Shown here: positions 7,663-62,641 of the stretch, in pieces | How positions within the stretch are numbered: the first letter of the stretch is position 1 | Layout of the letters: the number at the start of each line of letters is the position of its first letter | DNA from: a virus | Length of the DNA: 64,000 nt | Reading direction: 5' to 3' (one strand) | IMG/VR virus record: IMGVR_UViG_3300026484_000087 | Location: 142,245-206,244 of that record | Notes under the pieces: generated by a model | What the model was told of the DNA's origin: nothing | The model's database searches: none | Seen by the model: the letters and a program-made list of their open reading frames with translations, nothing else | Program-made: the position numbers and the translations under genes

Positions 7663-7663
7663 T

Positions 7664-9945: not shown

Positions 9946-9986
9946 ATATAATCCTTATTTATCTTTTCTCATCTATTAGTATGTCG

Positions 9987-10006: not shown

Positions 10007-10032
10007 AGAATACAAGTTTATAAGGATTTGAT

Positions 10033-11260: not shown

Positions 11261-11274
11261 TTTAAGTATCTGAT

Positions 11275-11305
11275 ATGGAGGCGACTTTTTTGGTTGTCTT
11301 CATAT
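11275..11305 (+). terminator. Possible weak hairpin terminator
   Basis: ATGGAGGCGAC and GTTGTCTTCAT can pair around a TTTTTTG loop in the plus-strand RNA only if G-U pairs are allowed. This may attenuate transcription before the resolvase gene. Confidence 0.35.
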
Positions 11306-11319
11306 GTTATATAAATACA

Positions 11320-11338
11320 TATAAACGTATTTTAATGA
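11320..11338 (+). promoter_or_regulatory. Plus-strand leader/promoter motif
   Basis: TATAAACGTATTTTAATGA is the second copy of the element at 9987-10006. It lies 24 bases before the resolvase start and just after the hairpin at 11275-11305. Confidence 0.4.
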
Positions 11339-11361
11339 TAATAAAGCATAAGGTTTAAAAA

Positions 11362-11922: not shown

Positions 11923-11934
11923 AAGGAAAAACAA

Positions 11935-12459: not shown

Positions 12460-12776
12460 TTAAATATGTACTAATGGCAGTCATAGCGTTCATGTTTAGT
12501 GGTTGTTTTAGATGTCAACCAGTTATAGAAACAAAGGTAGTTTATAAAGATAAAGTTATTCTTGTAGCTCCTCCGAAAGAAGTACTTAACGATATCAGTA
12601 TCCCAAGACCACCAGATAGGGAGTTATTTATTCAGTCTAGTTCCATAGATAGATTAAATATGCTTACCAATTATAGCATAGATTTGATGAAAAGACTTAA
12701 CTCGTCTAATAATAGATTCAGAAGTCTTAGAGAATGGGTTGATAAACAAAAGAAAATATATAAGGAAGATAAGTAG
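12456..12776 (+). CDS. Putative outer-membrane spanin lipoprotein (o-spanin)
   Basis: 106 residues with a lipoprotein signal peptide: MIKYVLMAVIAFMFSGC, lipobox FSGC with the lipidated Cys at residue 17. The mature part contains a proline-rich stretch (VAPPKEV, IPRPPDRE) and a C-terminal helix. Together with the preceding single-helix coiled-coil protein and the ATGA overlap, this is a typical two-component spanin pair needing a Gram-negative outer membrane. It ends just before a strong hairpin. Confidence 0.7.
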   Translation: MIKYVLMAVIAFMFSGCFRCQPVIETKVVYKDKVILVAPPKEVLNDISIPRPPDRELFIQSSSIDRLNMLTNYSIDLMKRLNSSNNRFRSLREWVDKQKKIYKEDK

Positions 12777-18503: not shown

Positions 18504-18526
18504 TATAACCATATGGTTATACTAAC
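18499..18526. terminator. Bidirectional palindromic terminator
   Basis: A perfect 28-bp palindrome (GTTAGTATAACCAT and complement) overlaps the stops of the convergent SbcC-like gene and the gene ending at 18522. Confidence 0.8.
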
Positions 18527-19136
18527 AGTTACATTTTATTTTTTTTATATAAGATTCTAGGTTTCTTATATGGGTATCTTTTTTATCTAATAGCGTTAAT
18601 GTTTCTTGGTATCTAGTTCTAAAACTTTTCTTAACAGATGATTTGTTCTCTCTAAGTAATTCCATTTGCTTACTTGTAGTATCATCTAACAATACTTTAG
18701 CAGAGGTAGGGATCTCTTTTAAGGCAGCTTCTACTCCGAGATTGTCGTATATAACATTAATCAAATCATCTTTCAACGTTGTAAGATCTAAATCCAATGG
18801 TAATAAGCCTAATGAAATAGCCAGCATCCTTTCTTGATGTTGTTTACCAACTATAACAGGTATACTTAATATTTTATTAGCTGGTACATAAAGATATTCG
18901 TTACCAGTACTTAATAGAACTACTATAGGTACTTTATTTTCAAGATCTCTTGCTAGGTCTTCTTCAGTAAGACCTACTGGTTTATAGATATTGTCAAGAG
19001 GTTTATCTGTAGCAAGTTCATCTAGACTACGTATAGCTGTAACAAGGTATTCTTCTAAACTACTTAATACATTATCAAATGGGGCTGCTAACACAAACTT
19101 ACCTTTTGAATTTATTGGTGGTACTGTATATTCCAT
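18522..19136 (-). CDS. Putative virion structural protein, 204 aa
   Basis: AAATAAAGGAATAATA precedes the ATG. The order of motifs (KFVLAAPFDNVLSSLEEYLVTAI, given here only by its landmarks APFD and LVTAIR; then IVVLLSTGN, YLYVPANKI, LGLLPLDLDL; then a helical Glu/Lys C-terminus) resembles a conserved jumbo-phage virion protein, recalled from memory. The C-terminal 50 residues are a likely coiled coil ending in CNC. A conserved leader motif lies 34 bases upstream of the start. Confidence 0.6.
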   Translation of the reverse strand: MEYTVPPINSKGKFVLAAPFDNVLSSLEEYLVTAIRSLDELATDKPLDNIYKPVGLTEEDLARDLENKVPIVVLLSTGNEYLYVPANKILSIPVIVGKQHQERMLAISLGLLPLDLDLTTLKDDLINVIYDNLGVEAALKEIPTSAKVLLDDTTSKQMELLRENKSSVKKSFRTRYQETLTLLDKKDTHIRNLESYIKKIKCNC

Positions 19137-19154
19137 TATTATTCCTTTATTTAT

Positions 19155-19179
19155 TTAATCAATAAAATGTTATGGGTAA
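19155..19179 (-). promoter_or_regulatory. Conserved 25-bp leader motif, copy 2
   Basis: Minus-strand TTACCCATAACATTTTAT followed by TGATTAA, nearly identical to copies at 14506 and 21821. It lies upstream of the virion gene starting at 19136. Confidence 0.5.
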
Positions 19180-19206
19180 TAATTGAAAAAAAAAATAAAC
19201 ATGATA

Positions 19207-19491
19207 TTAGATATCATGCTCATCCAGATCAACTGACAGTCTGATCTTATTTGGTGTCATAGACACAACTTTAATGTTGAATTTTGTGTAGATATTAACA
19301 AGATCATTGAAATTATCAATAATATCAGTATAACAAAATCCACCACATACTAGTTCATCGAACTCTCCAGAGCTTGAAGCTATTGGAAATGTTCTTTCCA
19401 ACAACTCTTTATGTACTGTATCAAATCTTACGATAACTACCATAGTTCTTGGATCTATATTTTCTAGTTGTTCTTCAGTTAGTTTTTTCAT
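19207..19491 (-). CDS. Hypothetical protein, 94 aa
   Basis: Not recognised. AGGAGAAGACA precedes the ATG. A small alpha/beta protein with an acidic C-terminus (VDLDEHD). It overlaps the end of the upstream 132-aa gene by 17 bases and is probably co-translated with it. Confidence 0.6.
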   Translation of the reverse strand: MKKLTEEQLENIDPRTMVVIVRFDTVHKELLERTFPIASSSGEFDELVCGGFCYTDIIDNFNDLVNIYTKFNIKVVSMTPNKIRLSVDLDEHDI

Positions 19492-35946: not shown

Positions 35947-36636
35947 ATGGATAAAAAAAGAAAAGAAGTTCAAGATTTTATCCTTAAGTATGTAGACAAA
36001 ATAGCTCCTGGTGGATATAACCATGGGCTATATGTCGATCTATTTAAGAAAATGTCAGATAAAGATTTTAAAGAGTTTATGATAAAGCTTAGAGATAAAG
36101 ATTTAACCATATCTATAATAGCTCCTGTTAGCGGTAAAGTAAAATTAGATACTAAACGTAACTTTAAGATAGGTAAAGAATTAGGCTACGATTTCTTTCA
36201 ACCTCTTATTATAGGTCCAAAAGGTAATAAAAAAGATGGTACTTATATACCTAAGTTTAAAACTAATATAAAATATCTTACATACGATCTTCCTATTAGA
36301 AGAACTGCACAGTTACTTATGAAAGGTGTTTCTGTTGGTACGGATAATAAAGTTATAGATTTAACTACTGGACAAGTTACTGGTGATTCTAAATCTGCTA
36401 AACTAACAAAACCTGAGCTTGAATTATTAGTTGGTATGGGATTAGATAAAAGTATAAAAGAGCTAATGAAAGTTAGGGGTGGTGATTTAGGTTCAGCAAG
36501 AGCAGCTGAAGCTTCTATAAGTAGAACAGGACAAGTTAGTCAAGACGCTATAGAACCGTACGGCACTGGAGTTGTATCTACTAAAACATTAAATACTATG
36601 TTCAATGCAGCACATTTAAAAACGACATTAAAATAA
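35947..36636 (+). CDS. Protein resembling the C-terminal end of RNA polymerase beta, 229 aa
   Basis: AAGGATAAGTT precedes the ATG. Residues about 115-229 align by eye with the end of bacterial RpoB: LTTGQVTGDSKSAKL with VTQQPLGGKAQFGGQR; KPELELLVGMGLDKSIKEL with EVWALEAYGAAYTLQEML; MKVRGGD with TVKSDD; and a final STKTLNTMFNAAHL with a helix ending in RSLGI. Jumbo phages of the phiKZ type have split beta subunits, and similar proteins are often labelled virion proteins. At 229 residues it lacks the beta active-site and hybrid-binding parts. The similarity is my reading; a structure search would decide. Confidence 0.5.
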   Translation: MDKKRKEVQDFILKYVDKIAPGGYNHGLYVDLFKKMSDKDFKEFMIKLRDKDLTISIIAPVSGKVKLDTKRNFKIGKELGYDFFQPLIIGPKGNKKDGTYIPKFKTNIKYLTYDLPIRRTAQLLMKGVSVGTDNKVIDLTTGQVTGDSKSAKLTKPELELLVGMGLDKSIKELMKVRGGDLGSARAAEASISRTGQVSQDAIEPYGTGVVSTKTLNTMFNAAHLKTTLK

Positions 36637-36677: not shown

Positions 36678-39600
36678 TTATTTTATCTCAGTAGTATCTT
36701 TAGTAACCACATTAGGTTTATCTACAGTTTCATCTTCATAAACTATAGTTTTTAGTTCATTTATATTAACTAAACCATTTATATCTATTTCATTATTTAT
36801 AGAAATAGTATCTTTTGTTTTATCTAAACTACCTTTAAGTTTAGGACTATACATATCTACAGGAGTTCTATTATCGCCTATCACATTAGGTTTACTAGAT
36901 TTATCTCTATCCATATCATACATAATTGTTCTTGTTGTACTAACATTTATTTCACCTATTACTACATCCGTATTTATATTAGATGTTTTATTTGTTTCAA
37001 TATCTTTTGTTCTACTTAACTTAGGTTTAAACATTCCTACATCTACTTTACCATCAGTAGCTATTAAAGCTGGTGTACTATCTACCCCATCCTCATTACT
37101 ATATATAATAGTATTTAACTCGCTACTTATAGCAAGACCAGTAAGATCATTAACATTTATAACTTCAGTATCCTCTAATTCTAAAGTTTCTGTTTTTGGC
37201 ATAACTGGAACAAACATGTTGTCTAATTCATTATCTATAGAACCAACAAGTTCAGGTACTATAGTTTTAGCCAAATTGTTTTCCTCTACCCTACCAATAC
37301 CAGTAACATCCTTTTTGGTTTTACTACCTTTAATTGTATTGTCAACAACATATTCAGTATCTTTGAAAACAATCTCTACTGATTTATTTATTTTAGGTTT
37401 AAACATATCTACATTAGAACTCATATCACCTATTAATTCAGCATCATTGTTTGTATTTAAATCTTTACTATATAATAGGGCTTTAACAAACTTGCGATTA
37501 TATGTACCAGTGAATGTATCTGTAGTTAAAGTATATGTTTCATTTAACTTATATCCTTTAGCTGTACTAGTTGGACTAAACATATCATCTAGATCACTAT
37601 TTACAGAACCATATAGTACGGGGTTAAGGTCTCCCGCTATAACTGGTGACATATTAAGAAGTATACCATTGGTAGTTTTAACTCTTTTACTACCAACAAT
37701 AGTCTCAGTAATTATGCCATCTATATCATCGGCTCTATTGCTAATAACGTCTGTTACTAAAGGTTTGAATAGGTTAAGTGCAACATCATTGTTTCCTATT
37801 AAAGATCCAACTTCATATTCACTTATCTCACCATTTTCACCATACATTATTATTTTATTTATATCTTGTAGAACGTTACCTTTATAATTTATACCTTTAG
37901 GTATAGAATCAAGGATATCCTTTTCATCTACAGAACCTGTTTTAAAATCAGGTTTAAATAATGTTAATGTTGATAAATTAGTATTAAATTTACCTATAGG
38001 AGCAACATCTACCCATATATCTTTACTATTTATATCCATAGTAATTTTATTGGCATCACTTCTACTTGTACCAGAGACAGTACTCGTATTAATTGTAGTA
38101 TCCAAACCATCAACTTGTTCATTGGAGTTAACTCTAAACTTAGGATGATACATCTCTATTATGTTCTTAGTAGTATTGAAGTAAACATTAGGTTCTATAT
38201 CACCATCTATAACATTACTTGTATTATAGAACATCATTTCATTCTTACCAGTAACACTACCCATAGGAACATAGTTTTCACTGTAAGGATTTCTTACAAC
38301 TTCATCTATACCGTAAGTTATACCGTCAACTTTTGGAGAGAACATATCTATGGTTTTATAGTTTCTACTACCTCTAAGTACTGGCTTGCTTCCATCATTA
38401 GGTCTATTATCTATATCTTCTAATAATACTTCCATATGATTATTGATATATCTACCTTTACTAGTATCAAAGCTGCCAGCCACTATTCTATATGATTCAT
38501 TTATACTAAATACTTCAGATCTAGGCTTATAAAGTTTAGTATCAGCTTTTCTAACAGAACCGTATACGTTTGGTTTATTAGAGCTTTCTATATCCATTGT
38601 TTCATTAAACATAGTAAGTACATTATGATCATTATTTAAAGAACCATTGTATCCATAATTATTTTTCATTGGAACAAGATCTTCTGCTAATGGGTTATAG
38701 ATATTTGAAACATTTGGTTTAAAGTAATCCAAAACTCTCATACCAGTATCTATGATAGCAGTTGGTTTATTATTTTCTAAAATATCATCTGTATACATTC
38801 TAAGTTTGGTTGTATTTATTTGTACTCTACCAAAACCTTTGGTAAAGTTACTTACGAATGCTAATGTAGTATCCTCTACACTAGTATTTAAAGCTACAAT
38901 AGGATTAAACATATTTATAATACTATTATTAGTAGATACCTTAAATGTAGAAATTTCACTAGACCACAATTCTTTACTAATAACAGACATACTCACCATA
39001 TTTCTATGGTTATTAGTTTTACCCATAACAACCGTTTTGGATGCTGAATAATTTATACTAGATACTTCATCATTAGTTATGCCGCTAACTATAGGACTAA
39101 ACCAATTAAGTACGTCTTTATTAACGTGTCCTAGAACATTAGGTATGGTACTAAAATCCTCATATAGTTTAACATCCGTAACGCCTTTACCAAGATTACC
39201 ATACATACTTACTCTATATTCTATTTCAGAATTAAGTACTTCCCTTTCTTTCTTATCCATGCTAATATTAGGAGAATACATATTCACTGTACCAAATTCA
39301 CTAACAAAAGATAATACTGGAAGGGTGCTGTTTTCAAGATCATGATGTAATTGCATATCCATTTTAACAGGAGTATTTAAAACAGTACCTGATAATTTAT
39401 TTACGGTATTTATACCATCTATAAACGTTCTATCAAAACCACCATTGGATAACAGGATAGGACTATACATTGTTATAGAGGCTTTTTTGCTCCTACTTAT
39501 CATAGTTGTCTGTTCTACAATAATATCAGTTTTATCAACATGCATTGTAATAATATTATCATCAGTTCTAGATGAACCATGAATAAACTCATTTTCTGTT

Positions 39601-42600
39601 TTATCTATAACATCTACAATATCATTTATGTTTCCACTAACTATAGGAGAGAACCATTTAAGTAGTCTCTTACTTGTATTCATCACTAATGTAGGCATAG
39701 CATTATCGGTATTTAATCCAGTTTCCCCACTAACTATAAGTTTGGTTTCACCTCTTTTTATGTTAACGTTACTATTAAACTTATTACTTATGAATTTTAA
39801 ATCAAGAGTAATATTTAAAGTATCTGTTGTAAATGTTGGTTTAAAGAAATCAATGCCTTTTAAAGGAACATTGGCTATAAGAGTACTTGTCTCTTGATAC
39901 ATTTCAGAATCATAGTTCTCGATTCTTGTTTTTAAAGTATGGTCTTTAGCTATACCTTTAATATATGTATCTTTAAAATACTCAGTACTTTCTTTATTGT
40001 TTTTATCTATAAACGATCCTATTTTAGGAGAGTACATATTTAAACTAGACTCTATGTTTCTTATAAGATTAATAGAAGTCTCTCCAGTTATAGAATGTAT
40101 TCCATCAGACATAAGTAATTTAACCTTAGCCTTTTGTTTACCATAAGGAATCATGCTAGCGTTAAATACGTTGTCTATTGTTTTATAATAATCTTCATCA
40201 TTTTTACCACTATCTAAGCTAGGTCTAAACATATCTGGTATACCACCAATACTATAAGTAATATTAGGCATACTATAATTGAAAATACCTAAAGGCGTTT
40301 CCATAGTTATGTTTATACTATCTTGTTTAATGTAACCTGTTTGACCTCTATCTATAGTTAAAGAATCACTTTTGTTCATGGTCTTATCTGACATAGATTT
40401 AACTGTAGGTTTATACCAATCTAATAGTCTTCTGTTTGTACTCATAACCATTTCTGGTTTGCCATTTACTTCAACATTACTTGATATATCATAAAGCTTA
40501 AATTTGGTAACATCATTTATAAAATTACCATAACTTAAGTTAAATGAATTAGAACCTATGGTCTGAATTATATTATCAGACTTACTGTTAACTATCGGAC
40601 TAAATAGTCTAAAAGACAATGGTCCAGCAGTTGTGGTAATCGTAGGTGTATTAGAATAATCCAATTCTTTACTATACCACTCCATAGCAGTTTGGATGTA
40701 TCTTTTAACAACTCTACCAACTTTACTAGTCTCACTACTAGCTAATTGGATAATATCTTTCATATCATTTATTTTAGTACCTATATAAGGTCTAAACATA
40801 GTTAGATATGATTTATTGCTAAATACAACATCAGGCATTTCATTTTTAACATGTAGTACATTGGTTAACGCTAAACGTTCTTCAGGTTCGTATAACATTA
40901 ATTTAGGAGGATTTATTCTGGTATAACCTCTTGGTATCATCAATTCTATATCAGACTTTAAGAAGCATCCATAAGGAGCATCTCTGGCGGCCATATAACC
41001 ATAAAAGTCTTCAAGTGCTCTAAATGTACCTTCATGAATATCAATGATACCAGGAGTACTTATTGACATATTTGTATTATATCTAGTAGACATAACATCT
41101 AAACTATTTGTACTATTCATAAACTGTATTGTGCTAGAAGATAAGTTTTTAACTATCTTAATATATTTGTCAACCATTTCATTAACATCATCTTTATCAA
41201 AATAGAATCCAGTAAATGCATAAAGAACCTTATTTAATGTTTCTTTATAATCATATACGTCTGTAAAATAGAAATCCACAAATTGGTTAGCCATTAGTTC
41301 GTCTATAGTACTATCTCCTTGATTGAAGATAATAGTCTCTTTCATATGTAAACGTTTATACATTGTTTTTATAGAATTGTTTATGAGCATATCGTTAGAG
41401 TTTGTTGCTATATTCCAAATTACTGAATTAAAACTATTCAAGTCTTTTAAATATTGATTAAATATATCTCTATCTAAGTATGTTAGTCTATCTGGTCTTA
41501 ATTCTATAAGTTTTTTAGCTATGTCATATGTTATAGTAGGGTTTATCATGTTATAATTAAGGGCATCCACTGTTATAACGCTATTTAAAAGTTTATTTGC
41601 AGTATAAGATGGAATCTTTGGATTAACATTGCCACTAATAACTGCTAGTAACTTAAGAATTAAGAAAGCTGCTTGCTTAGCATCTAAGTCATAAGTAAAT
41701 CCAGTATTATTATCTATAAATGTTATTGATGTTTTATAAATATCTCTAAATGCCATTTGTATAAAGTTATCTAGAACCATTTTTAGTTCTATCTTATTCT
41801 CAACTACATAAGATCTATTCACTTTTATCTTAAATGTTTTAGTTTTTTGTTTATTGAATTTATTTTTATCCAATTTATATTCTAAGGTATTGTCGTAAAA
41901 ATTCGTATCTTTTATAACCATATCGTTATCTACAAATGCTTTACTAAATTGTCTAAGCAATAAAGCCTTACCACTTGTATCATCATTATCATCTATTAGA
42001 TAATAATCATTTCTTCTTTTAGATATGAACCTATTCTCTTTTTTATCATATATTGGCTTAGTTATATCTGTTAAATTCAATAAGTCTTCATCTGGTAAAC
42101 CGTTTAGAAGTTCTACCTCAGCTACGCCTATACCATTTTCAGTAAGTATCTTTTCTATAAGTATATCAAGAGTTTTGTTTTTACCTATATTATTCTTGAT
42201 ATATCTAAGATTCTTATATAACCAAAACCTAGTTTCTTTACTAAGAACCTTAACATCTACATCTATACCATAATTAGATCTAAAAAATTCATAGATATGA
42301 AAACTGTGTGCTTCAGATGTAAAGATATAATCCTGTCTTATATTCAATGTTTTTAAAACCATTTTAGTATAGAGTGTTGCTAATAGTGACGGTATATAAA
42401 GATCATCAATTATGCCATAATCTCTAATATGCCAACGTAGAAAATAGTTCTTAGAGAACTCATTAAGTCTATGTATTAAATTGGTTTCCTGCTCTTCAAC
42501 TAGATAAGGACTATGTGCAACTAATTCTCCATTAGTGCAGTTAATGACATCGTTTATATCAAGTCCATATATAATACCCTTTATAAGCAATTCATCTTCA

Positions 42601-42935
42601 GGATACTCTGCTACTAAATCATTATAGTATGTATCAAATTTCTTTAATTCATTTCTAGTAGTCTTATATTTATCAAGGAGTTCTTTAGTTAGTTTTTGAA
42701 CAGAACCATCTTCAATGATAGTTATATTTATTCGATGGTCTAATTTATGATATTCTCCAGATATGTTCATAAAGTATTTCCAGGTAGTACGATCCTCTGG
42801 TTCATCTCCTAGAATACTTGTGCCGTATATTTTAACAAGTTCATTGTTAATTTGTATTGCTGTATCTATACTGAGAATGATTAAACTTTTAATCAATCTT
42901 ACAGTATCTTCAATATATTTTGTAGTTGTAATCAT
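36678..42935 (-). CDS. Giant repeat protein, probable tail or fibre component, 2085 aa
   Basis: GAGGAAAAACA precedes the ATG. The first 700 residues are mixed helical and contain no repeat. From there to the C-terminus the sequence has about 21 copies of a degenerate unit of roughly 50-90 residues, each marked by an aromatic-Pro core: LFSPIV, WYKPTV, MFRPSL, MYSPKI, FFKPTF, WFSPIV, MFNPIV, YFKPNV, LYKPRS, MFSPKV, LFKPDF and others. Between the marks are a Gly/Ser/Asp turn and Ile/Met-Thr strands. Such arrays fit a long fibrous or shaft-like virion protein. It is divergent from the portal gene. No known domain is recognised. Confidence 0.65.
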   Translation of the reverse strand: MITTTKYIEDTVRLIKSLIILSIDTAIQINNELVKIYGTSILGDEPEDRTTWKYFMNISGEYHKLDHRINITIIEDGSVQKLTKELLDKYKTTRNELKKFDTYYNDLVAEYPEDELLIKGIIYGLDINDVINCTNGELVAHSPYLVEEQETNLIHRLNEFSKNYFLRWHIRDYGIIDDLYIPSLLATLYTKMVLKTLNIRQDYIFTSEAHSFHIYEFFRSNYGIDVDVKVLSKETRFWLYKNLRYIKNNIGKNKTLDILIEKILTENGIGVAEVELLNGLPDEDLLNLTDITKPIYDKKENRFISKRRNDYYLIDDNDDTSGKALLLRQFSKAFVDNDMVIKDTNFYDNTLEYKLDKNKFNKQKTKTFKIKVNRSYVVENKIELKMVLDNFIQMAFRDIYKTSITFIDNNTGFTYDLDAKQAAFLILKLLAVISGNVNPKIPSYTANKLLNSVITVDALNYNMINPTITYDIAKKLIELRPDRLTYLDRDIFNQYLKDLNSFNSVIWNIATNSNDMLINNSIKTMYKRLHMKETIIFNQGDSTIDELMANQFVDFYFTDVYDYKETLNKVLYAFTGFYFDKDDVNEMVDKYIKIVKNLSSSTIQFMNSTNSLDVMSTRYNTNMSISTPGIIDIHEGTFRALEDFYGYMAARDAPYGCFLKSDIELMIPRGYTRINPPKLMLYEPEERLALTNVLHVKNEMPDVVFSNKSYLTMFRPYIGTKINDMKDIIQLASSETSKVGRVVKRYIQTAMEWYSKELDYSNTPTITTTAGPLSFRLFSPIVNSKSDNIIQTIGSNSFNLSYGNFINDVTKFKLYDISSNVEVNGKPEMVMSTNRRLLDWYKPTVKSMSDKTMNKSDSLTIDRGQTGYIKQDSINITMETPLGIFNYSMPNITYSIGGIPDMFRPSLDSGKNDEDYYKTIDNVFNASMIPYGKQKAKVKLLMSDGIHSITGETSINLIRNIESSLNMYSPKIGSFIDKNNKESTEYFKDTYIKGIAKDHTLKTRIENYDSEMYQETSTLIANVPLKGIDFFKPTFTTDTLNITLDLKFISNKFNSNVNIKRGETKLIVSGETGLNTDNAMPTLVMNTSKRLLKWFSPIVSGNINDIVDVIDKTENEFIHGSSRTDDNIITMHVDKTDIIVEQTTMISRSKKASITMYSPILLSNGGFDRTFIDGINTVNKLSGTVLNTPVKMDMQLHHDLENSTLPVLSFVSEFGTVNMYSPNISMDKKEREVLNSEIEYRVSMYGNLGKGVTDVKLYEDFSTIPNVLGHVNKDVLNWFSPIVSGITNDEVSSINYSASKTVVMGKTNNHRNMVSMSVISKELWSSEISTFKVSTNNSIINMFNPIVALNTSVEDTTLAFVSNFTKGFGRVQINTTKLRMYTDDILENNKPTAIIDTGMRVLDYFKPNVSNIYNPLAEDLVPMKNNYGYNGSLNNDHNVLTMFNETMDIESSNKPNVYGSVRKADTKLYKPRSEVFSINESYRIVAGSFDTSKGRYINNHMEVLLEDIDNRPNDGSKPVLRGSRNYKTIDMFSPKVDGITYGIDEVVRNPYSENYVPMGSVTGKNEMMFYNTSNVIDGDIEPNVYFNTTKNIIEMYHPKFRVNSNEQVDGLDTTINTSTVSGTSRSDANKITMDINSKDIWVDVAPIGKFNTNLSTLTLFKPDFKTGSVDEKDILDSIPKGINYKGNVLQDINKIIMYGENGEISEYEVGSLIGNNDVALNLFKPLVTDVISNRADDIDGIITETIVGSKRVKTTNGILLNMSPVIAGDLNPVLYGSVNSDLDDMFSPTSTAKGYKLNETYTLTTDTFTGTYNRKFVKALLYSKDLNTNNDAELIGDMSSNVDMFKPKINKSVEIVFKDTEYVVDNTIKGSKTKKDVTGIGRVEENNLAKTIVPELVGSIDNELDNMFVPVMPKTETLELEDTEVINVNDLTGLAISSELNTIIYSNEDGVDSTPALIATDGKVDVGMFKPKLSRTKDIETNKTSNINTDVVIGEINVSTTRTIMYDMDRDKSSKPNVIGDNRTPVDMYSPKLKGSLDKTKDTISINNEIDINGLVNINELKTIVYEDETVDKPNVVTKDTTEIK
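36690..40810 (-). repeat. Array of about 21 degenerate protein repeats
   Basis: The coding region holds repeating units marked by (L/I/V)-x-(M/W/L)-(Y/F)-(S/K)-P. Unit length varies from about 45 to 95 codons, and DNA identity between units is low, so this is an old expansion at protein level rather than a recent tandem duplication. Confidence 0.7.
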
Positions 42936-47152: not shown

Positions 47153-47186
47153 GATACTGCCTGTATCTAAGTTAATAATATATCAT
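47153..47186 (-). promoter_or_regulatory. Promoter plus conserved 5' hairpin, copy 4
   Basis: Minus-strand ATATATTATTAACTTA followed by GATACAGGCAGTATC (47153-47167), 25 bases before the ATG at 47128. This copy has a loop one base shorter. Confidence 0.6.
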
Positions 47187-47204: not shown

Positions 47205-47230
47205 GATAACCTAGATTAATCTAGGTTATC
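47205..47230 (-). terminator. Palindromic terminator overlapping a stop codon
   Basis: A perfect 26-bp palindrome (GATAACCTAGATT and complement) covers the last codons and stop of the gene ending at 47216. Confidence 0.75.
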
Positions 47231-48910
47231 TATTTCAACTTCTATCTCCGAATTAAGAATCTCTTTATTCTCAATTATTTTACCATTAAACATCTTATCT
47301 AATAGTGTTATGCTTTCCATAATATCTTCTTTCGGCTTGAGTCTACCACTAGCTATATCTAATGTTATAAATGGATTTATTCTAAGCTTTGGTGTAGGTG
47401 CTTTCTTAGGTAGGTATAATATACTACCCATAAATAAATCTGGACCAGTAATAGTTCTAGTAGCCTTTGGGAATACTTGAGATTTACTCTTGGTAACATT
47501 CTTACCACGTTCCTGTAACTCAAGTACTGAAGTAATCTTATGGTACTTATTATCACTAGCATAATCCGTAAGCAACATTGTAATGTTCTGGTTTGAACTC
47601 TTAATAAGCATAAATATCTTCTTAGAGGATATGTTAGCGTTGAATATTCTAGTAACCTCATTTATAGCAAGATCTTTCTTAAGAGATTTTCTAGTAAGTT
47701 CAAAGATAGTTTTGTTTATACCAAGTATGATGTCATACATAATGTAATATAGAACATCTATGTATCTATTAAATATATTGTTATTATATGTTTTACTATT
47801 TAATAACCACTCGCTATATTTACCAAGTATAACCGCTAACAGATCAAAGAAGTCGTTAACCATAATTCCTATTTCTGCTAACTTTGTCTTAATTAGATTA
47901 TCTATATAAGACTTTAAAGATATAAAATGATCAACTATATCTGCATAGATTCTATCTGCAGAATAATTGTTCTTAAATATGATTTTACCTAACATAAGTT
48001 TCCAGTAAACCAACTCATTCTTTAAATCTCCAGAATTTATAACATCAACCATTTCATTAGCATTAGCAGGTAGTGCATCTAAGGTATATATTAGGCCTAC
48101 TATGATGTTTTCTACGTAAGGAGTAGTTTTACCCTTTGGAACTAAAACTTTAACGTTATGACCAATGTAGTGCGTTTCTTTAAGGCTTCTTGGTTTAAGC
48201 TTTATAGATTCATAAATATCATGTGTTTCTTGATACTTACTAACGTCTTGATCATATGTGATTATAGGTTCTATGCCAGCATACTTTAAGAATGTATCTT
48301 TAAAACCATACTCTGCTAATAAATACAATGCTATAGGTGGCACTATGCTTCCAAGATCATCCTTTATGGCTCTAGTAGAAACTCTATAAATAGTTGACGA
48401 TATTACTTGTCCAGCTATCTTATTGCCATTTAGGATAACGTTTCTATTTGTACGGGTAAAGATAAGTTTATCTCTTAATAGACGTATAAATACTTTCTTT
48501 TCATCTGGACTAACAACAGTATCTGAAAGCACTGGTACTATATGGTATTTAGTATCAGATATATGCATCATACCACCATCTTCTAAAAATGGCATATATA
48601 AATATCTTTTAGGCAATGGTGCTCCATTGTAACTAAATAATAGTTCTATCTTATAAATATCCGATACCGCTATATCATAATTTATTCTATTGTTACCAGT
48701 TGTAAATAAAGTATCGTATTCTTCTTTAGGAGATAACATTCTCCAGCCATGGTATTCTAACTTTTCAGTAGCTGATTTCATAGCACTTCTAATTATAGCA
48801 TCTATATATTCTGGTGCTGATTTAACAGATTCAGTTGCTATACCGTTAACCACGGCATCGTTAAAATGAGGAACACAATTATCCATCATTTTACTTAAAA
48901 CATCATTCAT
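47216..48910 (-). CDS. Protein resembling the N-terminal part of RNA polymerase beta, 564 aa
   Basis: ATAAGGAGAATAT precedes the ATG. Residues about 85-155 read YLYMPFLEDGGMMHISDTKY, then VPVLSD and VFIRLLRDKLIF. This is the place of the beta-lobe GG-x-F-x-I-x-G-x-E-K motif in RpoB-type N-terminal subunits. A phiKZ-type jumbo phage encodes a beta N-terminal fragment (gp123) near its capsid gene, and here it lies in the capsid block too. The remaining 400 residues are helical and unassigned. The similarity is by eye. If it is not a polymerase subunit, it is an abundant virion protein. Confidence 0.5.
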   Translation of the reverse strand: MNDVLSKMMDNCVPHFNDAVVNGIATESVKSAPEYIDAIIRSAMKSATEKLEYHGWRMLSPKEEYDTLFTTGNNRINYDIAVSDIYKIELLFSYNGAPLPKRYLYMPFLEDGGMMHISDTKYHIVPVLSDTVVSPDEKKVFIRLLRDKLIFTRTNRNVILNGNKIAGQVISSTIYRVSTRAIKDDLGSIVPPIALYLLAEYGFKDTFLKYAGIEPIITYDQDVSKYQETHDIYESIKLKPRSLKETHYIGHNVKVLVPKGKTTPYVENIIVGLIYTLDALPANANEMVDVINSGDLKNELVYWKLMLGKIIFKNNYSADRIYADIVDHFISLKSYIDNLIKTKLAEIGIMVNDFFDLLAVILGKYSEWLLNSKTYNNNIFNRYIDVLYYIMYDIILGINKTIFELTRKSLKKDLAINEVTRIFNANISSKKIFMLIKSSNQNITMLLTDYASDNKYHKITSVLELQERGKNVTKSKSQVFPKATRTITGPDLFMGSILYLPKKAPTPKLRINPFITLDIASGRLKPKEDIMESITLLDKMFNGKIIENKEILNSEIEVEIDNLD

Positions 48911-48957: not shown

Positions 48958-50205
48958 TTATTTATAAATTGTCGGTAAAAACTTAATAATACCACCGAGT
49001 AAACCAATGGCATTAGTTGTAGTTTTTATTCTTTCAGCATTTACTTTATGTCTATGTATTTGCTCATCTCTTATGACATTTATCGTATTGGATAAAGTAT
49101 CACTCTTGATTTTCAATAAACTTGCCTTATATCCAATAAGTTTAGTTTCTCTTTCTATTTTAGCTAAATCAACTGCTGTTACATATTTTAATTCCTCCAT
49201 TTTACTTTCATGTTTACGCTTTACTGTTTCATTACTTAATTGTTGTTTAGACAATTCAACTTTATTATCTTCTATATCCAACTTCCTATATAATAACTCC
49301 TTGTTAACATCTTCTAATATTAATTTCTTATCACCATTAAATCTAGCTAACTCCTCTGTCTTATAAATACCTATGTTATCTAATTCAGATAACTCAAATT
49401 CCGTTCTATCGGCAAGTAATTCATTATCCTTTTTAATTATGTAAGTAACACCATTGGCTTTCGTATTAGATGGATTAGATAAAAATCTTTGTACTTTATT
49501 ACCTAGTTGCATATAATAAGGCCTATATGGATTATCGTTATCAACTATATCTATAGATACAGTATTTGGATGGTCATCATTAAGTATCCTATAACGTTTT
49601 AACTTATCAGTTTCGGTTAATGAATTAGGATGCTTAACTATATCAGTTGGCATACCTTTAACTATAGCTACGTTATTATTACTAACAAATAAATACTTAT
49701 AATGGTCTATATCATATTTAGGTATATACGTAACTATGCGTACGGTAATAGAATTATTTAAACTACATGTAGCTATCTTTGATTCTATCTCCTTTATAGT
49801 ATGTTCCGTAAGATCCGCTGCTCTTCTATAATATTTCATTAATGAATGAATATTAACGCCAGTAACATCCAATATGGTATAGCGTTCTATTATATATACG
49901 CCTAAACCACTGCTCTTATCCACATCATCCTTAGTATTATACTTTATACCAAATGACGTTATATCACTATAGTTACGTATAGGCAAAGCTATGTTCCTTT
50001 CATCTATCATAAATAGATTATTACCCATATTAGTAAATACATGCTTCGTATAATCTGGATTACCGTAATGTTGATTACGTACAATATTATCATCGTTGAA
50101 AGAATTATTTATTCTATTTGATCTAAACACCTCATCATTGTATCTTTGTTCTGGACTTTCAAAAACTCTATTAAATTCGGATACAGGTGTAAAAGGTACG
50201 TTCAT
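48958..50205 (-). CDS. Putative virion structural protein, 415 aa
   Basis: AAGGAGAATATAT precedes the ATG. The N-terminal 280 residues are beta-rich with a proline/asparagine-rich start; residues 290-390 form a long Lys/Glu/Leu coiled coil; the end is hydrophobic (TTNAIGLLGGIIKFLPTIYK). It lies between the beta-like gene and the capsid gene. Not recognised, but the position and composition suggest a capsid-associated protein. Confidence 0.6.
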   Translation of the reverse strand: MNVPFTPVSEFNRVFESPEQRYNDEVFRSNRINNSFNDDNIVRNQHYGNPDYTKHVFTNMGNNLFMIDERNIALPIRNYSDITSFGIKYNTKDDVDKSSGLGVYIIERYTILDVTGVNIHSLMKYYRRAADLTEHTIKEIESKIATCSLNNSITVRIVTYIPKYDIDHYKYLFVSNNNVAIVKGMPTDIVKHPNSLTETDKLKRYRILNDDHPNTVSIDIVDNDNPYRPYYMQLGNKVQRFLSNPSNTKANGVTYIIKKDNELLADRTEFELSELDNIGIYKTEELARFNGDKKLILEDVNKELLYRKLDIEDNKVELSKQQLSNETVKRKHESKMEELKYVTAVDLAKIERETKLIGYKASLLKIKSDTLSNTINVIRDEQIHRHKVNAERIKTTTNAIGLLGGIIKFLPTIYK

Positions 50206-50419
50206 ATATTCTCCTTATATTTTGTTATACGAATAAATTTGGAGACTTTATATTTCCACACTTATTCGTATTTATACATAAATAATATATGGTTAAGATT
50301 ATTTCAAAAAAAAAAATAAGATGTACGCTACGCCAACTGAATGACGTAACATATCTTTTTGGCAGTATCTTTTCTTAACTATATTACTGCTACCGCAAAC
50401 GTACATTTCTATACGGACT

Positions 50420-50460: not shown

Positions 50461-50568
50461 TTTCTCTCCCTTATAATACATCATTCGATTACTTAGGGAT
50501 TACATATATCAGCTATATGTCATGTAAATAATATATGATTAAAAAAGATTTAAAACTAATAAAGATAC

Positions 50569-50598
50569 AGTACTGTATGGAATTAACCATACAGTACT
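50569..50598 (-). terminator. Terminator of the major capsid gene
   Basis: 12-bp perfect arms (AGTACTGTATGG and complement) around AATTAA lie about 55 bases after the capsid stop on the minus strand. Confidence 0.7.
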
Positions 50599-50652
50599 AT
50601 TGTATCTAAATGCATTGTTTTTTTTTTTGGATATACTTATATCAATCAGCTA

Positions 50653-52821
50653 TTAAACTGTTGCAAAGTTTTTAGTAACTTTACCTAGTGACTCTTCAAT
50701 ACCACTAATGTTAATAACAGTTAGAATAGGTAGTTGAGGAACATGTAAGAATCTTGGTAATGTAGAAAGTTCTCTAACGATGCTTCCACCTCTGTTAGCA
50801 ACAACATCTAAAGAAACTTCTGGAGACCAGAAACATACACCAAAACCAAGTGGGTTAACTTTTTCATTTTTACTTGCACCTGTATCACCAAATGAAATGA
50901 ACATTTTACCTTTAACTAGTGGATTTTGAGTAGTAGCTAAATGTACTTCAAACTCATCACCAATTTCAATTTTACCAGTACCATTTGTTAAGTATTGTGC
51001 AGTTCTACTATCTGTACCAATGATTACCGAAGTTTTACCAGCAACACCACCATTAAGAACTTTACTAGCGATAGCGTAGTTAGATTCAATGAACATTTTG
51101 ATAACTTCATCTTTAATTTTACCAGTTAATGTACCTTTAATATCTTCCATTTTCTCACCAGATCTAACTGAGTCAATGTTGTTAGCAATATTTAAGTTTG
51201 TTTCATTATAGTAAGCATCTACAAAGAATCTTGATACACCAAGAATTGCAGCATCTTTAACATTACCATTAGATGTAATTTGTCTTAAAGTTTCAGAGAA
51301 TGAAACAAGAGTATTTACAGCTTCAAGAGACATTTTGATACCAGTGAATGCTACTTGTGAAGCAAGGTATGTTGCATCGTTGTCAGTATCATTAGAGTTA
51401 CCAACTGTTTTAAGAATTGTTACACCTGATCTAACTGGAACAGTATAGATTTGGTTATGAATATCAACACCAACTAATTGACCTCTTTGTCTAATGTTAG
51501 AGTTAGTTGTATAAGCTTCTACAGAGTAAGCTCTAGGTTTACAAGTTTCAATAACTGCAGCAATTGCTTTGTAGTTATCATTATCTTCATCAAGAATATT
51601 TCCACCAGCATCAAGAACTTCAACAAGTTTAACAGAAGAACTGTATACAGCAACATCACCAATTTGAGTATTACCATCACCATGAAGAACAAGTTCAACT
51701 CTAACAGTATAGTTTTGAGCAAGTTGTGCTAAGATTTCAGAACCAGCACCATTCCATTGTTTAGTAGCAGCAGTATTTAAGATCATTCCATCTGTTGTGA
51801 AAGAAAGCATTAAATCTTTGTTATGATCTTGTGTGCTATATGTAAAGTTTGAATGTGGTAACATAGAAATGTTAAATTTGAATGTTTCAGTAATCTCTTT
51901 ATCATCAGCATCTTTACCAGTAAGATCAAAGAATACATCTTGAACTTGAACTCTTCTATCAAGAGCATCAGTATTATCCATAACACCTTTAGCAAGTTGT
52001 GCATCAGTTTGAGAAACACCTAATACAGAAATAGCTTTACCCATTTTTAATGGAGCAGTAGTGATTTTCTCACCTTTTTCAGTATTTACAGTTTTAAGAT
52101 CAGCAGCAAGTACTGCAGCATTTTCTTCTCTTAATACAGGAACAAGTAGGTTTTTATCTACAGATAAGATAGTTGGATCAACGATAGCTTTAACAATTGA
52201 TTTTTTATTAAATTTACCTCTATCAGATGCACCATTAGTACCTCTTGTAACTTCATCATAAAGATTGATAACTCTAGCTTCAATACTAGCACCAGAAGAT
52301 GTAGGATCAATTGTAACAGTTGGGAAGAATAGTTCACCAAATGCATCTTGTTTAGAAGCAAGTAAGTTATATACAACAGAGAAGTAAACAGCAGAGTTAA
52401 TAGTTTGACCATCAAAAGACTCTACAGAGATATTTTCTGTATCCATGATATCTTCAACACCAAGTGCCATAGCATCTACAGTACCAACAACATTTTGTGC
52501 AGTAACAGCTTTAAGGTTATTTAAATTTTGTCTAGCAGCAGTTGGATCCATTGCAAGACCAGCAACTAGTTGTGCAGCTTTTAATTGTGCAGCAGTTGGA
52601 TCAAAATCTTCCATACCTTCAGAAGAGATAACTGAATCAATTGTATTTTGTACAATTTCATTAAGAGAGTCTAAACTAGACTTAGCTGTAGCGGCAGTAC
52701 CTTCATCCATGCTTTCTGAAGAGATTACAACTTGTGTAATTTCTGGTCTATTAGTAAGACCGTGTACTGTTAAACCTGTTTTCATTCCGTCAATAAGACC
52801 TACAATGTTTGTTTTATCCAT
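50653..52821 (-). CDS. Major capsid protein, 722 aa
   Basis: AAAAGGATCCCATT precedes the ATG. The first 134 residues are Ala/Gln-rich and helical, ending in NISVES; cleavage after Glu134 would fit the S-x-E sites used by jumbo-phage prohead proteases. The mature part opens with VVYNLLASKQDAFGELFFPT, a segment conserved at the start of mature jumbo-phage capsid proteins. The end reads LHVPQLPILTVINISGIEESLG. The length is close to phiKZ-type capsid proteins (about 750). Its codon use is visibly less AT-rich than neighbours, as expected for a highly expressed gene. It forms the capsid shell. Confidence 0.85.
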   Translation of the reverse strand: MDKTNIVGLIDGMKTGLTVHGLTNRPEITQVVISSESMDEGTAATAKSSLDSLNEIVQNTIDSVISSEGMEDFDPTAAQLKAAQLVAGLAMDPTAARQNLNNLKAVTAQNVVGTVDAMALGVEDIMDTENISVESFDGQTINSAVYFSVVYNLLASKQDAFGELFFPTVTIDPTSSGASIEARVINLYDEVTRGTNGASDRGKFNKKSIVKAIVDPTILSVDKNLLVPVLREENAAVLAADLKTVNTEKGEKITTAPLKMGKAISVLGVSQTDAQLAKGVMDNTDALDRRVQVQDVFFDLTGKDADDKEITETFKFNISMLPHSNFTYSTQDHNKDLMLSFTTDGMILNTAATKQWNGAGSEILAQLAQNYTVRVELVLHGDGNTQIGDVAVYSSSVKLVEVLDAGGNILDEDNDNYKAIAAVIETCKPRAYSVEAYTTNSNIRQRGQLVGVDIHNQIYTVPVRSGVTILKTVGNSNDTDNDATYLASQVAFTGIKMSLEAVNTLVSFSETLRQITSNGNVKDAAILGVSRFFVDAYYNETNLNIANNIDSVRSGEKMEDIKGTLTGKIKDEVIKMFIESNYAIASKVLNGGVAGKTSVIIGTDSRTAQYLTNGTGKIEIGDEFEVHLATTQNPLVKGKMFISFGDTGASKNEKVNPLGFGVCFWSPEVSLDVVANRGGSIVRELSTLPRFLHVPQLPILTVINISGIEESLGKVTKNFATV

Positions 52822-53535: not shown

Positions 53536-55062
53536 ATGCAAAAAATGGATATAATATTCAAATCTATAACTTTACTATATAGAGAATCATTTATAGAGAA
53601 CAATGATATAAACAATAGTAACGATTTAGTTAGAACAGTTTTAAATACTATTGTAACTGATAGTAAATATAGTATGCTTGGTGCTGGTGCTGATAAAATA
53701 GAAAATCTTAAAAAGTTTACACTTGAATTATGTAATAGTAGCGATAAGCCTTTTGATAAGGAAATGATAAGACAAACTGTTGCTCTAATAATGGGTGACG
53801 ATATAGCTACTTTAGAAATACTGATGAGAACTATTGAGGATGATCTAGTTGAGGAAAAATTAAAAAGAGCCATATTGACACTTAAAAGATATCTAAACAA
53901 TTACTATAAAGAATACCAAATAAATGATGTTCTTAGCAAAGCACATTATAGGTTTAAAAACAATAGAAGTGGTATAAAAAGCACAAATGACTTTATTGCT
54001 AATTTGGTAACTAATCTAGAGGCTTTAGAATTAACCAGTAAAACAAAGGATCCAGCTATTGCAAATGAAGTTGACCTTGGAGATGAAAGTGGTTTATCAG
54101 AAGTATTAGACAGTGTTAAAGATGACAATACTACATTACCTAAATTAAAAACCGGTTGGCAGGGATTTAACACCATTACATCTGGTGGTTTCAGAAGAGG
54201 TGAAATGGTTTTATTAGCATCTCTACAGCATAAATATAAATCAGGTACCACTAATAGTCTATTCATGCAGGTAGCCATGGAGAATGAACCGAAAATGATT
54301 GATGGTACTAAAAAACCATTATTACTTTTAATTAGTTTAGAAGACGATATGGTTATTACTACTGATTTTATGTATAGATATTTATATAATGATGAACATG
54401 GAGAGCTTCCTGATTTTGATAAGGTAAGTCCTAAAGAGGCCAGTGATTATATAAAGAAAAAACTAAGTGTTAATGGATACCATATAAAGATGCTTAGAGT
54501 TAATCCAACTGAATGGTCCTTTAAACATTTATTCAATAAGATAATCTCTTATGAAGCTGATGGTTTTGAATTGCATGGAGTATTCATGGATTACCTCGGT
54601 ATGGTTCCAACTGTTGGTTGTAATTTAAGTGGTCCTATGGGTACGGATATAAGGGATTTATTTAGAAGAGTAAGAAACTTTTTCTCTGTTAGAAAATGTA
54701 CATTCTTTACACCGCATCAATTATCTGTTGATGCTAAGATGCTTATTCGTAATGGTGTTCCTGAAGCTACATTTGTTAAAGAACTTATAGGTAAAGGATA
54801 TTTTAGTGGTACCAAACAGTTAGATCAAGAACTAGATTTAATTTTATATAATCACATAGCTAAGATTAATGGTAAAGCCTGTTTGACAATAAGCAGGGAT
54901 AAACATAGAACTCCAGTAATACTTGATGATGAGTATAAATACTTCTATATGCCTTTCCCTAAGGGTGCTCCAATACCATCTGATATACATAGAGAAAAGT
55001 CTCTAGCAGTATTTCCAGATGCAAATGGTTCAGCTGGTGGAGATGATGTATTTGATTTTTAA
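53536..55062 (+). CDS. DnaB-like replicative helicase, 508 aa
   Basis: ATAAGGAACTATAG precedes the ATG. An N-terminal helical domain (1-170) is followed by a RecA-fold domain starting LKTGWQGFNTITSGGFRRGE (about 203-222). The Walker A position reads LLASLQHKYKSGTTNS, so the usual GKT is replaced by YKSGT. Walker B-like GVFMDYLGMVP, then FFTPHQLS and TISRDKHRTP match DnaB motifs. This degenerate P-loop form, as I recall, occurs in jumbo-phage DnaB-like proteins. The role is unwinding at the fork. Confidence 0.8.
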   Translation: MQKMDIIFKSITLLYRESFIENNDINNSNDLVRTVLNTIVTDSKYSMLGAGADKIENLKKFTLELCNSSDKPFDKEMIRQTVALIMGDDIATLEILMRTIEDDLVEEKLKRAILTLKRYLNNYYKEYQINDVLSKAHYRFKNNRSGIKSTNDFIANLVTNLEALELTSKTKDPAIANEVDLGDESGLSEVLDSVKDDNTTLPKLKTGWQGFNTITSGGFRRGEMVLLASLQHKYKSGTTNSLFMQVAMENEPKMIDGTKKPLLLLISLEDDMVITTDFMYRYLYNDEHGELPDFDKVSPKEASDYIKKKLSVNGYHIKMLRVNPTEWSFKHLFNKIISYEADGFELHGVFMDYLGMVPTVGCNLSGPMGTDIRDLFRRVRNFFSVRKCTFFTPHQLSVDAKMLIRNGVPEATFVKELIGKGYFSGTKQLDQELDLILYNHIAKINGKACLTISRDKHRTPVILDDEYKYFYMPFPKGAPIPSDIHREKSLAVFPDANGSAGGDDVFDF

Positions 55063-55076
55063 ACCAAAAGAAACAG

Positions 55077-55105
55077 AGTAGTATACGGTTAAACCGTATA
55101 CTACT
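55077..55105. terminator. Bidirectional terminator
   Basis: 14-bp perfect arms (AGTAGTATACGGTT and complement) around one base lie between the convergent helicase and the holin-like gene. Confidence 0.8.
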
Positions 55106-55304
55106 TACCTATTTTAATGTTATCTATAATTTTACCAAGTAAATCTTTAGTAAAATCTGATCTAAACATCATAAAGATTGAACTATATAATGCAACAAAA
55201 CCAGTAGTTTCAATAACATCCGGATCCATATTCTTATAAACAGTAAACATATATACTGCTATGAAAATAAAGAAAGCCAATGTACTTTTCCAATTCTTAA
55301 ACAT
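55101..55304 (-). CDS. Holin-like small membrane protein, 67 aa
   Basis: AAAGGATTAGT precedes the ATG. Two transmembrane segments (about residues 8-22 and 35-48) and a basic C-terminus (KDLLGKIIDNIKIGK) give the size and topology of a class II holin. The spanin pair lies far away, so this is a possible lysis-timing protein; small membrane proteins of other function look alike. Confidence 0.5.
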   Translation of the reverse strand: MFKNWKSTLAFFIFIAVYMFTVYKNMDPDVIETTGFVALYSSIFMMFRSDFTKDLLGKIIDNIKIGK

Positions 55305-60580: not shown

Positions 60581-61089
60581 GTCACTTTCACTTTACTGTA
60601 GATGTTATTTATCTGTTTGATTGTCATTCTTTTATAATTGTGTTTCTTATCTTTTAATTTAAGAACACGTTTATTATTACCATCTTGTGCAGCAACATGG
60701 ATCCAACCATGTGGGAAATACTCAGCTATAAGTTCTTTGTACTCTAAATTTTTATTTATATACTTAAGTATTTTCATATACTTAATCTTCTTATTATATG
60801 GTTTAAAATCAACAGCAAAACCATAAGCATGATTAGAATGTTTAGAACTACCTATGGCTAAACATAAGGCAACAGATCTATAGCCAGACGTTATTTTAAT
60901 AGGACCAAACTTATCTCTAAGAGGTTGTAACACCGTATCTACTAAAAACTGTATTCTTTTTAAATACTTAGCTGGCATATCGTTGTTTATACCTTTTCTA
61001 AGTGCAGTATCTGAAATCAAGAATTCATCCAATGTGAAATTCTTAGATAATCTTATTTTTTTAGCTTGTTTTAATGTAATTACTTTCAC
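60577..61089 (-). CDS. M15-type peptidase (D-Ala-D-Ala carboxypeptidase-like), 170 aa
   Basis: GTG start with AAAGGGATAATT upstream. The zinc ligands are present in SKHSNHAYGFAVDF (His87 and Asp94; His84 nearby) and GWIHVA (His131). This is the M15A layout of phage endolysins and related L,D- or D,D-peptidases. There is no signal peptide. It may be an endolysin or a cell-wall trimming enzyme. Neighbours: a structural protein upstream and the nuclease downstream. Confidence 0.8.
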   Translation of the reverse strand: MKVITLKQAKKIRLSKNFTLDEFLISDTALRKGINNDMPAKYLKRIQFLVDTVLQPLRDKFGPIKITSGYRSVALCLAIGSSKHSNHAYGFAVDFKPYNKKIKYMKILKYINKNLEYKELIAEYFPHGWIHVAAQDGNNKRVLKLKDKKHNYKRMTIKQINNIYSKVKVT

Positions 61090-61091
61090 AA

Positions 61092-61370
61092 TTATCCCTT
61101 TAATCGAATATAACTATCGTGTAGTTCTGATAACAATCTTTCTTTAGTTGGATCAGCTATTCCATCTAATCTATTTATCTTTTTAATAAAAGTAGTATAA
61201 AGATCTTCTCTTATGTTGTCCAACGTACCTTTACTTATTTCTAACATATTACCATACGTTATAACCTCTTCAAATACAGATATGATGTTATTCTTATCCA
61301 CATTTTTTATAGCTTTCTTGTAGAAAGTTTTAATTTTAAAACTACTACCTATATCCTGAAAAAAACCCAT
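61092..61370 (-). CDS. Hypothetical protein, 92 aa
   Basis: Not recognised. The start at 61370 (MGFFQDI) follows GGAGATCAAT; the frame extends 10 Lys-rich codons further across an A run. A helical charged protein. It lies 2 bases from the peptidase gene. Confidence 0.6.
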   Translation of the reverse strand: MGFFQDIGSSFKIKTFYKKAIKNVDKNNIISVFEEVITYGNMLEISKGTLDNIREDLYTTFIKKINRLDGIADPTKERLLSELHDSYIRLKG

Positions 61371-61393
61371 ATTGATCTCCTTTTTTTTTTTTG

Positions 61394-61474
61394 CTAACAT
61401 AAAAAACTGTAAGCAATAATATACATTATTAAGTTAAATATTAACTCAATACCAACAATGAATAAAACAAACAT
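61394..61474 (-). CDS. Possible 26-aa membrane miniprotein
   Basis: ATG lies 5 bases after the stop of the 186-aa gene. The frame reads MFVLFIVGIELIFNLIMY, then IIAYSFLC. It is one hydrophobic helix. There is no ribosome site of its own, so translation would depend on coupling. Its place within a lysis/envelope operon makes it plausible. Confidence 0.4.
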   Translation of the reverse strand: MFVLFIVGIELIFNLIMYIIAYSFLC

Positions 61475-61476
61475 TA

Positions 61477-62037
61477 TTATTCATCAAATAAGGCTTTAAC
61501 ATCATCAGGTTGCGATGTACCTCCAAGCAATACAGCTCTTTCAAATATAACATTAACCCTATCGTAATCCTTAGATAGTATAATTGACTTGGTCTTTACT
61601 CTAAAAGCCTCTATCATACTATTAAATCTCATTAAATTATATTTATAAGCATCTCCCAACTCTATGATCTTTGTTGTCAGATCATCTATAGATATTCCAA
61701 TTAAATCTGATTCTAATTTAAAGAAATCCTCATAACTACCATCTTCTTTATATTTTTTAGCTGTAAGATACTTACTTTCATATCTCTCCATTTGTTCTAT
61801 AGATATCTCTTTACCTGCTATAAAGTGTTTAGCACCTTGTGATGTTTTATCACATATATCATTTAATAAGTATAAATAATATTCCATCATATCTTCTTCT
61901 TTAACAAGGGAGATGGCGTTATTTATTTCATCTGTAGACGGTATATTATCATTATCCAACCATTCAATCTTGTCGTCAATTATATTGTATCTTATTTCAG
62001 GAGCTATTTTTTGTATAGCTTTATCTATTACGGTCAT
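61477..62037 (-). CDS. Hypothetical protein, 186 aa
   Basis: Not recognised. AATAGGAGAAACAT precedes the ATG. A helical protein, rich in Asp, Glu and Lys. It overlaps the upstream gene by 17 bases. Probably a virion or assembly protein by context. Confidence 0.55.
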   Translation of the reverse strand: MTVIDKAIQKIAPEIRYNIIDDKIEWLDNDNIPSTDEINNAISLVKEEDMMEYYLYLLNDICDKTSQGAKHFIAGKEISIEQMERYESKYLTAKKYKEDGSYEDFFKLESDLIGISIDDLTTKIIELGDAYKYNLMRFNSMIEAFRVKTKSIILSKDYDRVNVIFERAVLLGGTSQPDDVKALFDE

Positions 62038-62641
62038 ATGTTTCTCCTATTTCTTTTACTAGTATCTTTGTAGTATAGTCAAGATTCTCATATTTACTAT
62101 TAGTATTTATAAATATGCCACCTTTATTAGAACCCACCTTTAAAATAAAATGTTTTACTGTCTTATCAGTATTGTTAAATATTATCTTGAATGTATCAAA
62201 TTTAACGTCATTATCAGTTACTTCTATATAAACATTTTCTATAAGCTTATTAGTAGTAGCTTCCCATAAACTAAACGTATTAAATATATTTGTCTTATGA
62301 AATCCAAAACGTCCATGTTTACCTTTTCTACTATGATATACCTGTATATTAAACTCTATAATAGATGTTTTGTGTTCTGGTTCTATAATAAAATCAAATA
62401 AACTATATCCATCTTCTATAGTGTTGTCCGTAGATGGTATAATATTATTTAGATTATATCTTGATTTATTTTCAATTCTAACCAAACTAATAAGATCTTT
62501 TATTTGTTTAAGATTAACCGCTTCATTATCGTCATCAGCCTCTTTTACTTTAAACTGTACGCCAGCATTGCCTTCTAATGTAGTTAATTTAAGTCTAATT
62601 ATATCGGCTTCTGTTAAATTTAAACGTTGCTTAACTATCAT
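62021..62641 (-). CDS. Putative structural protein, 206 aa
   Basis: AAGGAGTTAAAA precedes the ATG. Beta-sandwich-like sequence after a helical start (residues 90-206: SLFDFIIEP, IEFNIQVYHSRKGKHGRFG, FDTFKIIFNN). No family recognised. It may be a tail decoration or fibre protein. Confidence 0.55.
   Translation of the reverse strand: MIVKQRLNLTEADIIRLKLTTLEGNAGVQFKVKEADDDNEAVNLKQIKDLISLVRIENKSRYNLNNIIPSTDNTIEDGYSLFDFIIEPEHKTSIIEFNIQVYHSRKGKHGRFGFHKTNIFNTFSLWEATTNKLIENVYIEVTDNDVKFDTFKIIFNNTDKTVKHFILKVGSNKGGIFINTNSKYENLDYTTKILVKEIGETYDRNR

Follow-up and report, generated by a model that had tools for sequence, protein, structure and literature searches.

A deeply diverged homologue of phiKZ gp123, the predicted N-terminal half of an RNA polymerase β subunit, in the capsid block of an uncultured phage

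The non-virion RNA polymerase (nvRNAP) of phage phiKZ has been solved, and its gp123 chain is available as 7ogp_E. The β side of the DNA channel of this enzyme is formed by gp123 together with gp71-73 (PMC8287921). In gp123, the middle domain represents the β2 lobe (PMC7618050), and a cleft under this lobe binds the late promoter TATG, four bases of the non-template strand (PMC12809450). Jumbo phages with two polymerases have one AT-rich early motif each, which is recognised by the virion RNA polymerase (vRNAP) (PMC7598289), and RNA polymerase subunits belong to the core genes of the Chimalliviridae (PMC10299810).

The stretch of DNA analysed here (the window; 64,000 bases) comprises bases 142245–206244 of a 206,244-base IMG/VR record. 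Coordinates are those of the window unless given as contig, which denotes the whole record. The feature under study is:

47216–48910 (−): gp123 homologue, 564 aa, N-terminal half of the nvRNAP β subunit as predicted from phrog_2943, 7ogp_E and an AlphaFold2 model

The ORF (contig 189460–191154, −) consists of 564 codons, starting with ATG and with the ribosome-binding site AAGGAG just 5′ of it. Residues 1–541 of the 564 match the PHROGs family phrog_2943, annotated as "polymerase", with an E-value of 2.7e-100. A tblastn search yielded gp123 homologues from 257 phage records; the ones listed belong to jumbo phages of the phiKZ and EL kind and are at most 28% identical. The extent of the family match and the number of records together place the relationship with gp123 far beyond chance. 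A phmmer search of the PDB matched residues 28–543 to PHIKZ123 (7ogp_E, 1e-34). The segment GGMMHISDTKYHIVPVLSD corresponds to residues 112–130 and aligns with GNMVTINGAKYIGSPVLTD of phiKZ gp123; Pro126, Val127 and Asp130 are near-invariant among 14 diverse phage homologues. The nearest relative, 47% identical, is encoded on a metagenomic fragment (L014) and was the only close relative found in IMG/VR. In a FastTree phylogeny of the 14 homologues, whose deeper nodes are weakly supported, the two proteins group together on a long branch of their own (support 1.00) within the phiKZ-like phages. The ORF thus almost certainly encodes the front half of one of the large subunits of an RNA polymerase made by the virus itself, in a version distant from the phiKZ enzyme. 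It is a deeply diverged member of a known family and no new system.

Sequence profiles of the ORF and of the 14-member alignment did not reach RpoB, and Pfam gave no Rpb2 match for the ORF or for 13 homologues. Apart from one chance match to SMC3 (E 1.2), the PDB matches of both queries were to PHIKZ123 only. Weak matches of homologues to OGG_N, ENTH, MitMem_reg and SusD were regarded as noise. As RpoB has no match at the sequence level, the link to β rests on a predicted model, calculated with AlphaFold2 from 18 sequences without templates (mean pLDDT 76, pTM 0.73); the input alignment included phiKZ-like proteins. Using VIA-align, the model can be superposed onto phiKZ gp123 (9rjs_E) with a Z of 30.5 for 472 residues, onto the β N-terminal subunit of phage AR9 with a Z of 23.5, and onto residues ~10–650 of bacterial β with a Z of 14–15. 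Foldseek ranks the same three as phiKZ gp123 (7e-28), AR9 subunit (6e-16) and bacterial β (4e-8); the second-largest subunits of archaeal and eukaryal polymerases come next. Given these matches, the gp123 homologue is, in its predicted fold, the whole N-terminal half of β, and according to the model its kinship with cellular RpoB is at the level of fold only. The proposal of an earlier note that a β N-terminal fragment lies in the capsid block is therefore supported by gp123 homology and by the predicted fold, with the correction that the protein is predicted to be this entire half, not just a lobe. Of the comparison the note suggested with RpoB and the phiKZ and AR9 subunits, the fold matches all three, whereas the sequence profiles gave no match to RpoB.

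The surroundings of the gene contain the following features:

50653–52821 (−): major capsid protein, PF25620 (PhiKZ_MCP) 6.3e-132, marking the conserved gene block
50274–50290 (−): putative early-promoter motif ATATATTATTTATGTAT of the gp122-gp123 operon, 15.8 bits
50227–50271 (−): leader hairpin between motif ATATATTATTTATGTAT and the 415-aa gene, −16.3 kcal/mol, z −5.1
48958–50205 (−): 415-aa gene at the position that gp122 has in phiKZ, and assigned on that basis; phrog_7727 (2.1e-6), function unknown
47167–47183 (−): putative early-promoter motif before the 478-aa gene, 21.2 bits
45692–47128 (−): 478-aa gene that follows immediately 3′ of the gp123 homologue and has a separate putative early-promoter motif

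The order of capsid gene, 415-aa gene and gp123 homologue is that of phiKZ 120-(121)-122-123, which bears out the suggestion that the ORF has the place of gp123 near the capsid gene. A distance of 48 bases separates the 415-aa gene from the gp123 homologue downstream of it and, judging from this spacing, the two are probably co-transcribed as an operon. The 478-aa gene has no family match of weight in PHROGs or Pfam. Elsewhere in the window, 36678–42935 (−) encodes a protein of 2085 aa. Its N-terminal part matches phrog_3222, and the remainder contains a ~63-aa unit, recognisable by a (D/N)M(Y/F)SPK-like signature, in about 20 copies. The L014 orthologue of this protein has 816 aa.

Searching all ORFs of the 206,244-base contig with phiKZ proteins (phmmer) identified further polymerase subunits:

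contig 5676–7706 (−): gp74 homologue, nvRNAP
contig 9899–10843 (−): gp73 homologue, nvRNAP; also Pfam
contig 11514–12758 (−): gp71 homologue, nvRNAP
contig 17892–19442 (−): gp68 homologue, nvRNAP
contig 60703–62199 (−): gp55 homologue with NADFDGD, nvRNAP; also Pfam
contig 53971–55254 (−): gp80 homologue, vRNAP
contig 130105 to ~134292 (−): gp178 homologue, vRNAP, read as two overlapping stretches
contig 139407–140858 (−): gp180 homologue, vRNAP
contig 178191–178880, window 35947–36636 (+): gp149 homologue, vRNAP; phmmer 1.7e-37, phrog_3233 5.9e-67

The nine of these homologues scanned were assigned alike by PHROGs; Pfam likewise agrees on gp55 and gp73. All five nvRNAP subunits known from phiKZ (gp123, gp55, gp68, gp71-73 and gp74) thus have homologues on the contig. 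For the vRNAP the search covered four subunits (gp178, gp180, gp149 and gp80), to which one paper adds gp176. Other polymerase fragments including one with NADFDGD, which the earlier note expected elsewhere in the genome, are present on the same contig, namely the gp55 homologue and the further subunits. Its view that the phage has its own split RNA polymerase holds as to the splitting, but the homologues point to two such enzymes (nvRNAP and vRNAP), not one. A homologue of chimallin, the nuclear shell protein, is encoded at contig 62738–64651 (PF25677 4e-12, above the cut-off; phrog_4795 2.8e-40). From this homologue, the phage is most likely a nucleus-forming member of the Chimalliviridae. 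No tRNA genes were found.

A stretch of ~670 bases (contig 10844–11513, −, outside the window) lies between the gp71 and gp73 homologues. The gp71 frame ends just after GYKLTDLSG and the gp73 frame resumes at AKSIVCEIRKDEDMP; the phiKZ counterparts at its intron junction are FKMTDFHG and NKGVICKVMEDEDMP. The junction falls between Lys386 and Lys394, which the phiKZ papers call conserved, and both of these catalytic lysines of the β C-terminal half are kept across the site. The Rfam group I intron model scores 87.6 bits in phiKZ; here the score of 25 bits (E 6.5e-4) is below the cut-off of 50, and Rfam gave no match at or above the gathering score. The gap is a probable group I intron at a site identical to that of phiKZ. 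It also contains ICPEHGEFQQTPHSHL, which we take to be a homing-endonuclease remnant. Introns at the same site in phages so distant suggest old inheritance or repeated homing.

Motif ATATATTATTAAnnTAG has 26 sites scoring at least 14 bits over the contig, all on the minus strand and none on the plus strand, compared to an expectation of ~0.75 per strand from order-2 shuffles. As 18 of the 26 were used to train the matrix, the independent part of this result lies in the further sites and in the strand bias. Most sites are 40–90 bases before a gene, and ~18 have a small hairpin after them (for example GATAC-TAGGCA-GTATC), often immediately ahead of the ribosome-binding site. Examples in the window are at 9529, 15976, 19999, 23510, 25303, 33120, 47183 and 50290. 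The motif stands directly before the gp74, gp68 and gp55 homologues and before a short gene leading into the gp71-73 homologues; every nvRNAP gene unit, gp122-gp123 included, is preceded by an early-type motif, directly or via its operon. The site at 50274–50290 sits in the 447 bases that separate the capsid gene from gp122-gp123, and none of 200 shuffles was as stable as the leader hairpin that follows it. After the motif at 47167–47183, the hairpin GATAC-AGGCA-GTATC has an energy of −4.3 kcal/mol (z −7.9). The GATAC-loop-GTATC hairpin might serve as a leader element in early mRNAs, and we infer that motif ATATATTATTAAnnTAG is the vRNAP promoter. phiKZ has ATATTAC at a comparable place before gp121-gp123, where this heptamer is neither rarer nor commoner than chance, so that the two genomes agree here in position alone; upstream of phiKZ genes, TATTAC does show a strand bias. 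Just past the capsid gene, 50560–50615 (−) is a strong inverted repeat (AGATACA..TACTGTATGG-TTAATT-CCATACAGTA..TGTATCT) that is probably the terminator of this gene. At either end it is similar to the GATAC/GTATC arms of the hairpins in early leaders.

By homology, an injected virion polymerase made up of the homologues of gp178, gp180, gp149 and gp80 would be expected to transcribe the early operons, presumably starting from ATATATTATT-type promoters. The early operon between the capsid gene and gp122 would yield the gp123 homologue, and others, with similarly presumed timing, would yield gp55, gp68, gp71-73 and gp74. The five products may assemble without α or ω into a polymerase for later genes. 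The gp123 homologue would provide one wall and a pincer of the DNA channel (β1 and β2 lobe), with its cleft reading the non-template strand at the start site.

The residues of this start-site pocket were mapped from phiKZ gp123 through the alignment. Phe141, which stacks on G+1, is kept and is invariant in 14 of 14 homologues, as is His328; Ser331, Gln466, Ser134 and Lys148 are also kept, with Phe403 in the place of phiKZ Tyr406 and Arg180 in that of Lys190. Around T−1 and nearby, Leu396, Ile395 and Asn399 replace Tyr399, Asn398 and Ser402, Tyr175 and Arg176 replace His185 and Asn186, and Asp327 replaces Ser330. Low model confidence at residues 176–186 makes that part of the mapping weak.

The position of the gene, with the capsid gene on one side and virion genes on the other, would suit a head-operon structural protein resembling β in one motif alone. 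This is hardly credible: the gp123 match and the fold match are both full-length, phiKZ has the same gene in the same place, and there gp123 is a purified nvRNAP subunit (PMC4666361). A polymerase of the AR9/PBS1 type, whose sigma-like subunit reads template-strand uracils, is very improbable, since phiKZ gp123 matches the model better than the AR9 subunit does (Z 30.5 versus the 23.5 that would speak for such an enzyme), the homology search finds gp68 and not an AR9-type specificity subunit, and a chimallin homologue is present.

A subunit of the same kind with an altered start-site pocket, and hence late promoters other than TATG, is a possible but rather doubtful reading. The changes at the six phiKZ positions 399, 398, 402, 185, 186 and 330 would fit it, while the retention of Phe141, His328, Ser331, Gln466, Lys148 and an aromatic residue at 403 argues against it. 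Upstream of genes, TATG is no more frequent on the sense strand (58 versus 58), a count that is without power to decide, as phiKZ itself has no significant excess (64 versus 53). The simplest reading is that the mechanism is the same and the start-site preference probably similar, perhaps not identical. It seems unlikely that in this deep lineage the β N-terminal pocket has been re-tuned to late promoters unlike TATG. If true, the promoter specificity of this phage polymerase would evolve inside a β-type subunit rather than in a sigma-like factor. This uncultured lineage, with a gp123 at most 28% identical to the annotated phage records searched, keeps both split RNA polymerases and a nuclear shell protein homologue. 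With its distant orthologue, a pocket partly kept and partly changed, and a clear early motif, it offers a natural test of polymerase promoter choice.

Compared to known systems, the N-terminal half of bacterial RpoB has the same fold over ~10–650 (Z 14–15) at 8–12% identity; the gp123 homologue differs from it in lacking a Pfam Rpb2 match and in being encoded separately from the C-terminal half. The β N-terminal subunit of Bacillus phage AR9 (PDB 7s00) also shares the fold (Z 23.5) but only 14% identity, and the AR9 polymerase reads uracil in the template strand via a sigma-like subunit. The best annotated homologues, from Burkholderia phage FLC6/FLC8 and Erwinia phage pEa_SNUABM_54, are 28% identical over more than 90% and are distant, on separate tree branches. 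The 47% identical orthologue on IMGVR_UViG_3300000227_000012 (L014) lies in the same capsid block; this record is a 41-kb fragment only, on which the early motif-hairpin pair was not seen. Near its helicase and capsid genes, L014 also has a type IA topoisomerase-like ORF (306–2654, +; 782 aa). From phiKZ gp123 (PDB 7ogp, 7ogr, 8que, 9rjs), the protein differs in identity (~22%) and in several start-site pocket residues, and the block differs in that no gp121 was recognised between the capsid gene and gp122. The two are nevertheless alike in full-length homology and fold (Z 30.5), in their place after the capsid gene, in their partner subunits and in the early-type motif upstream.
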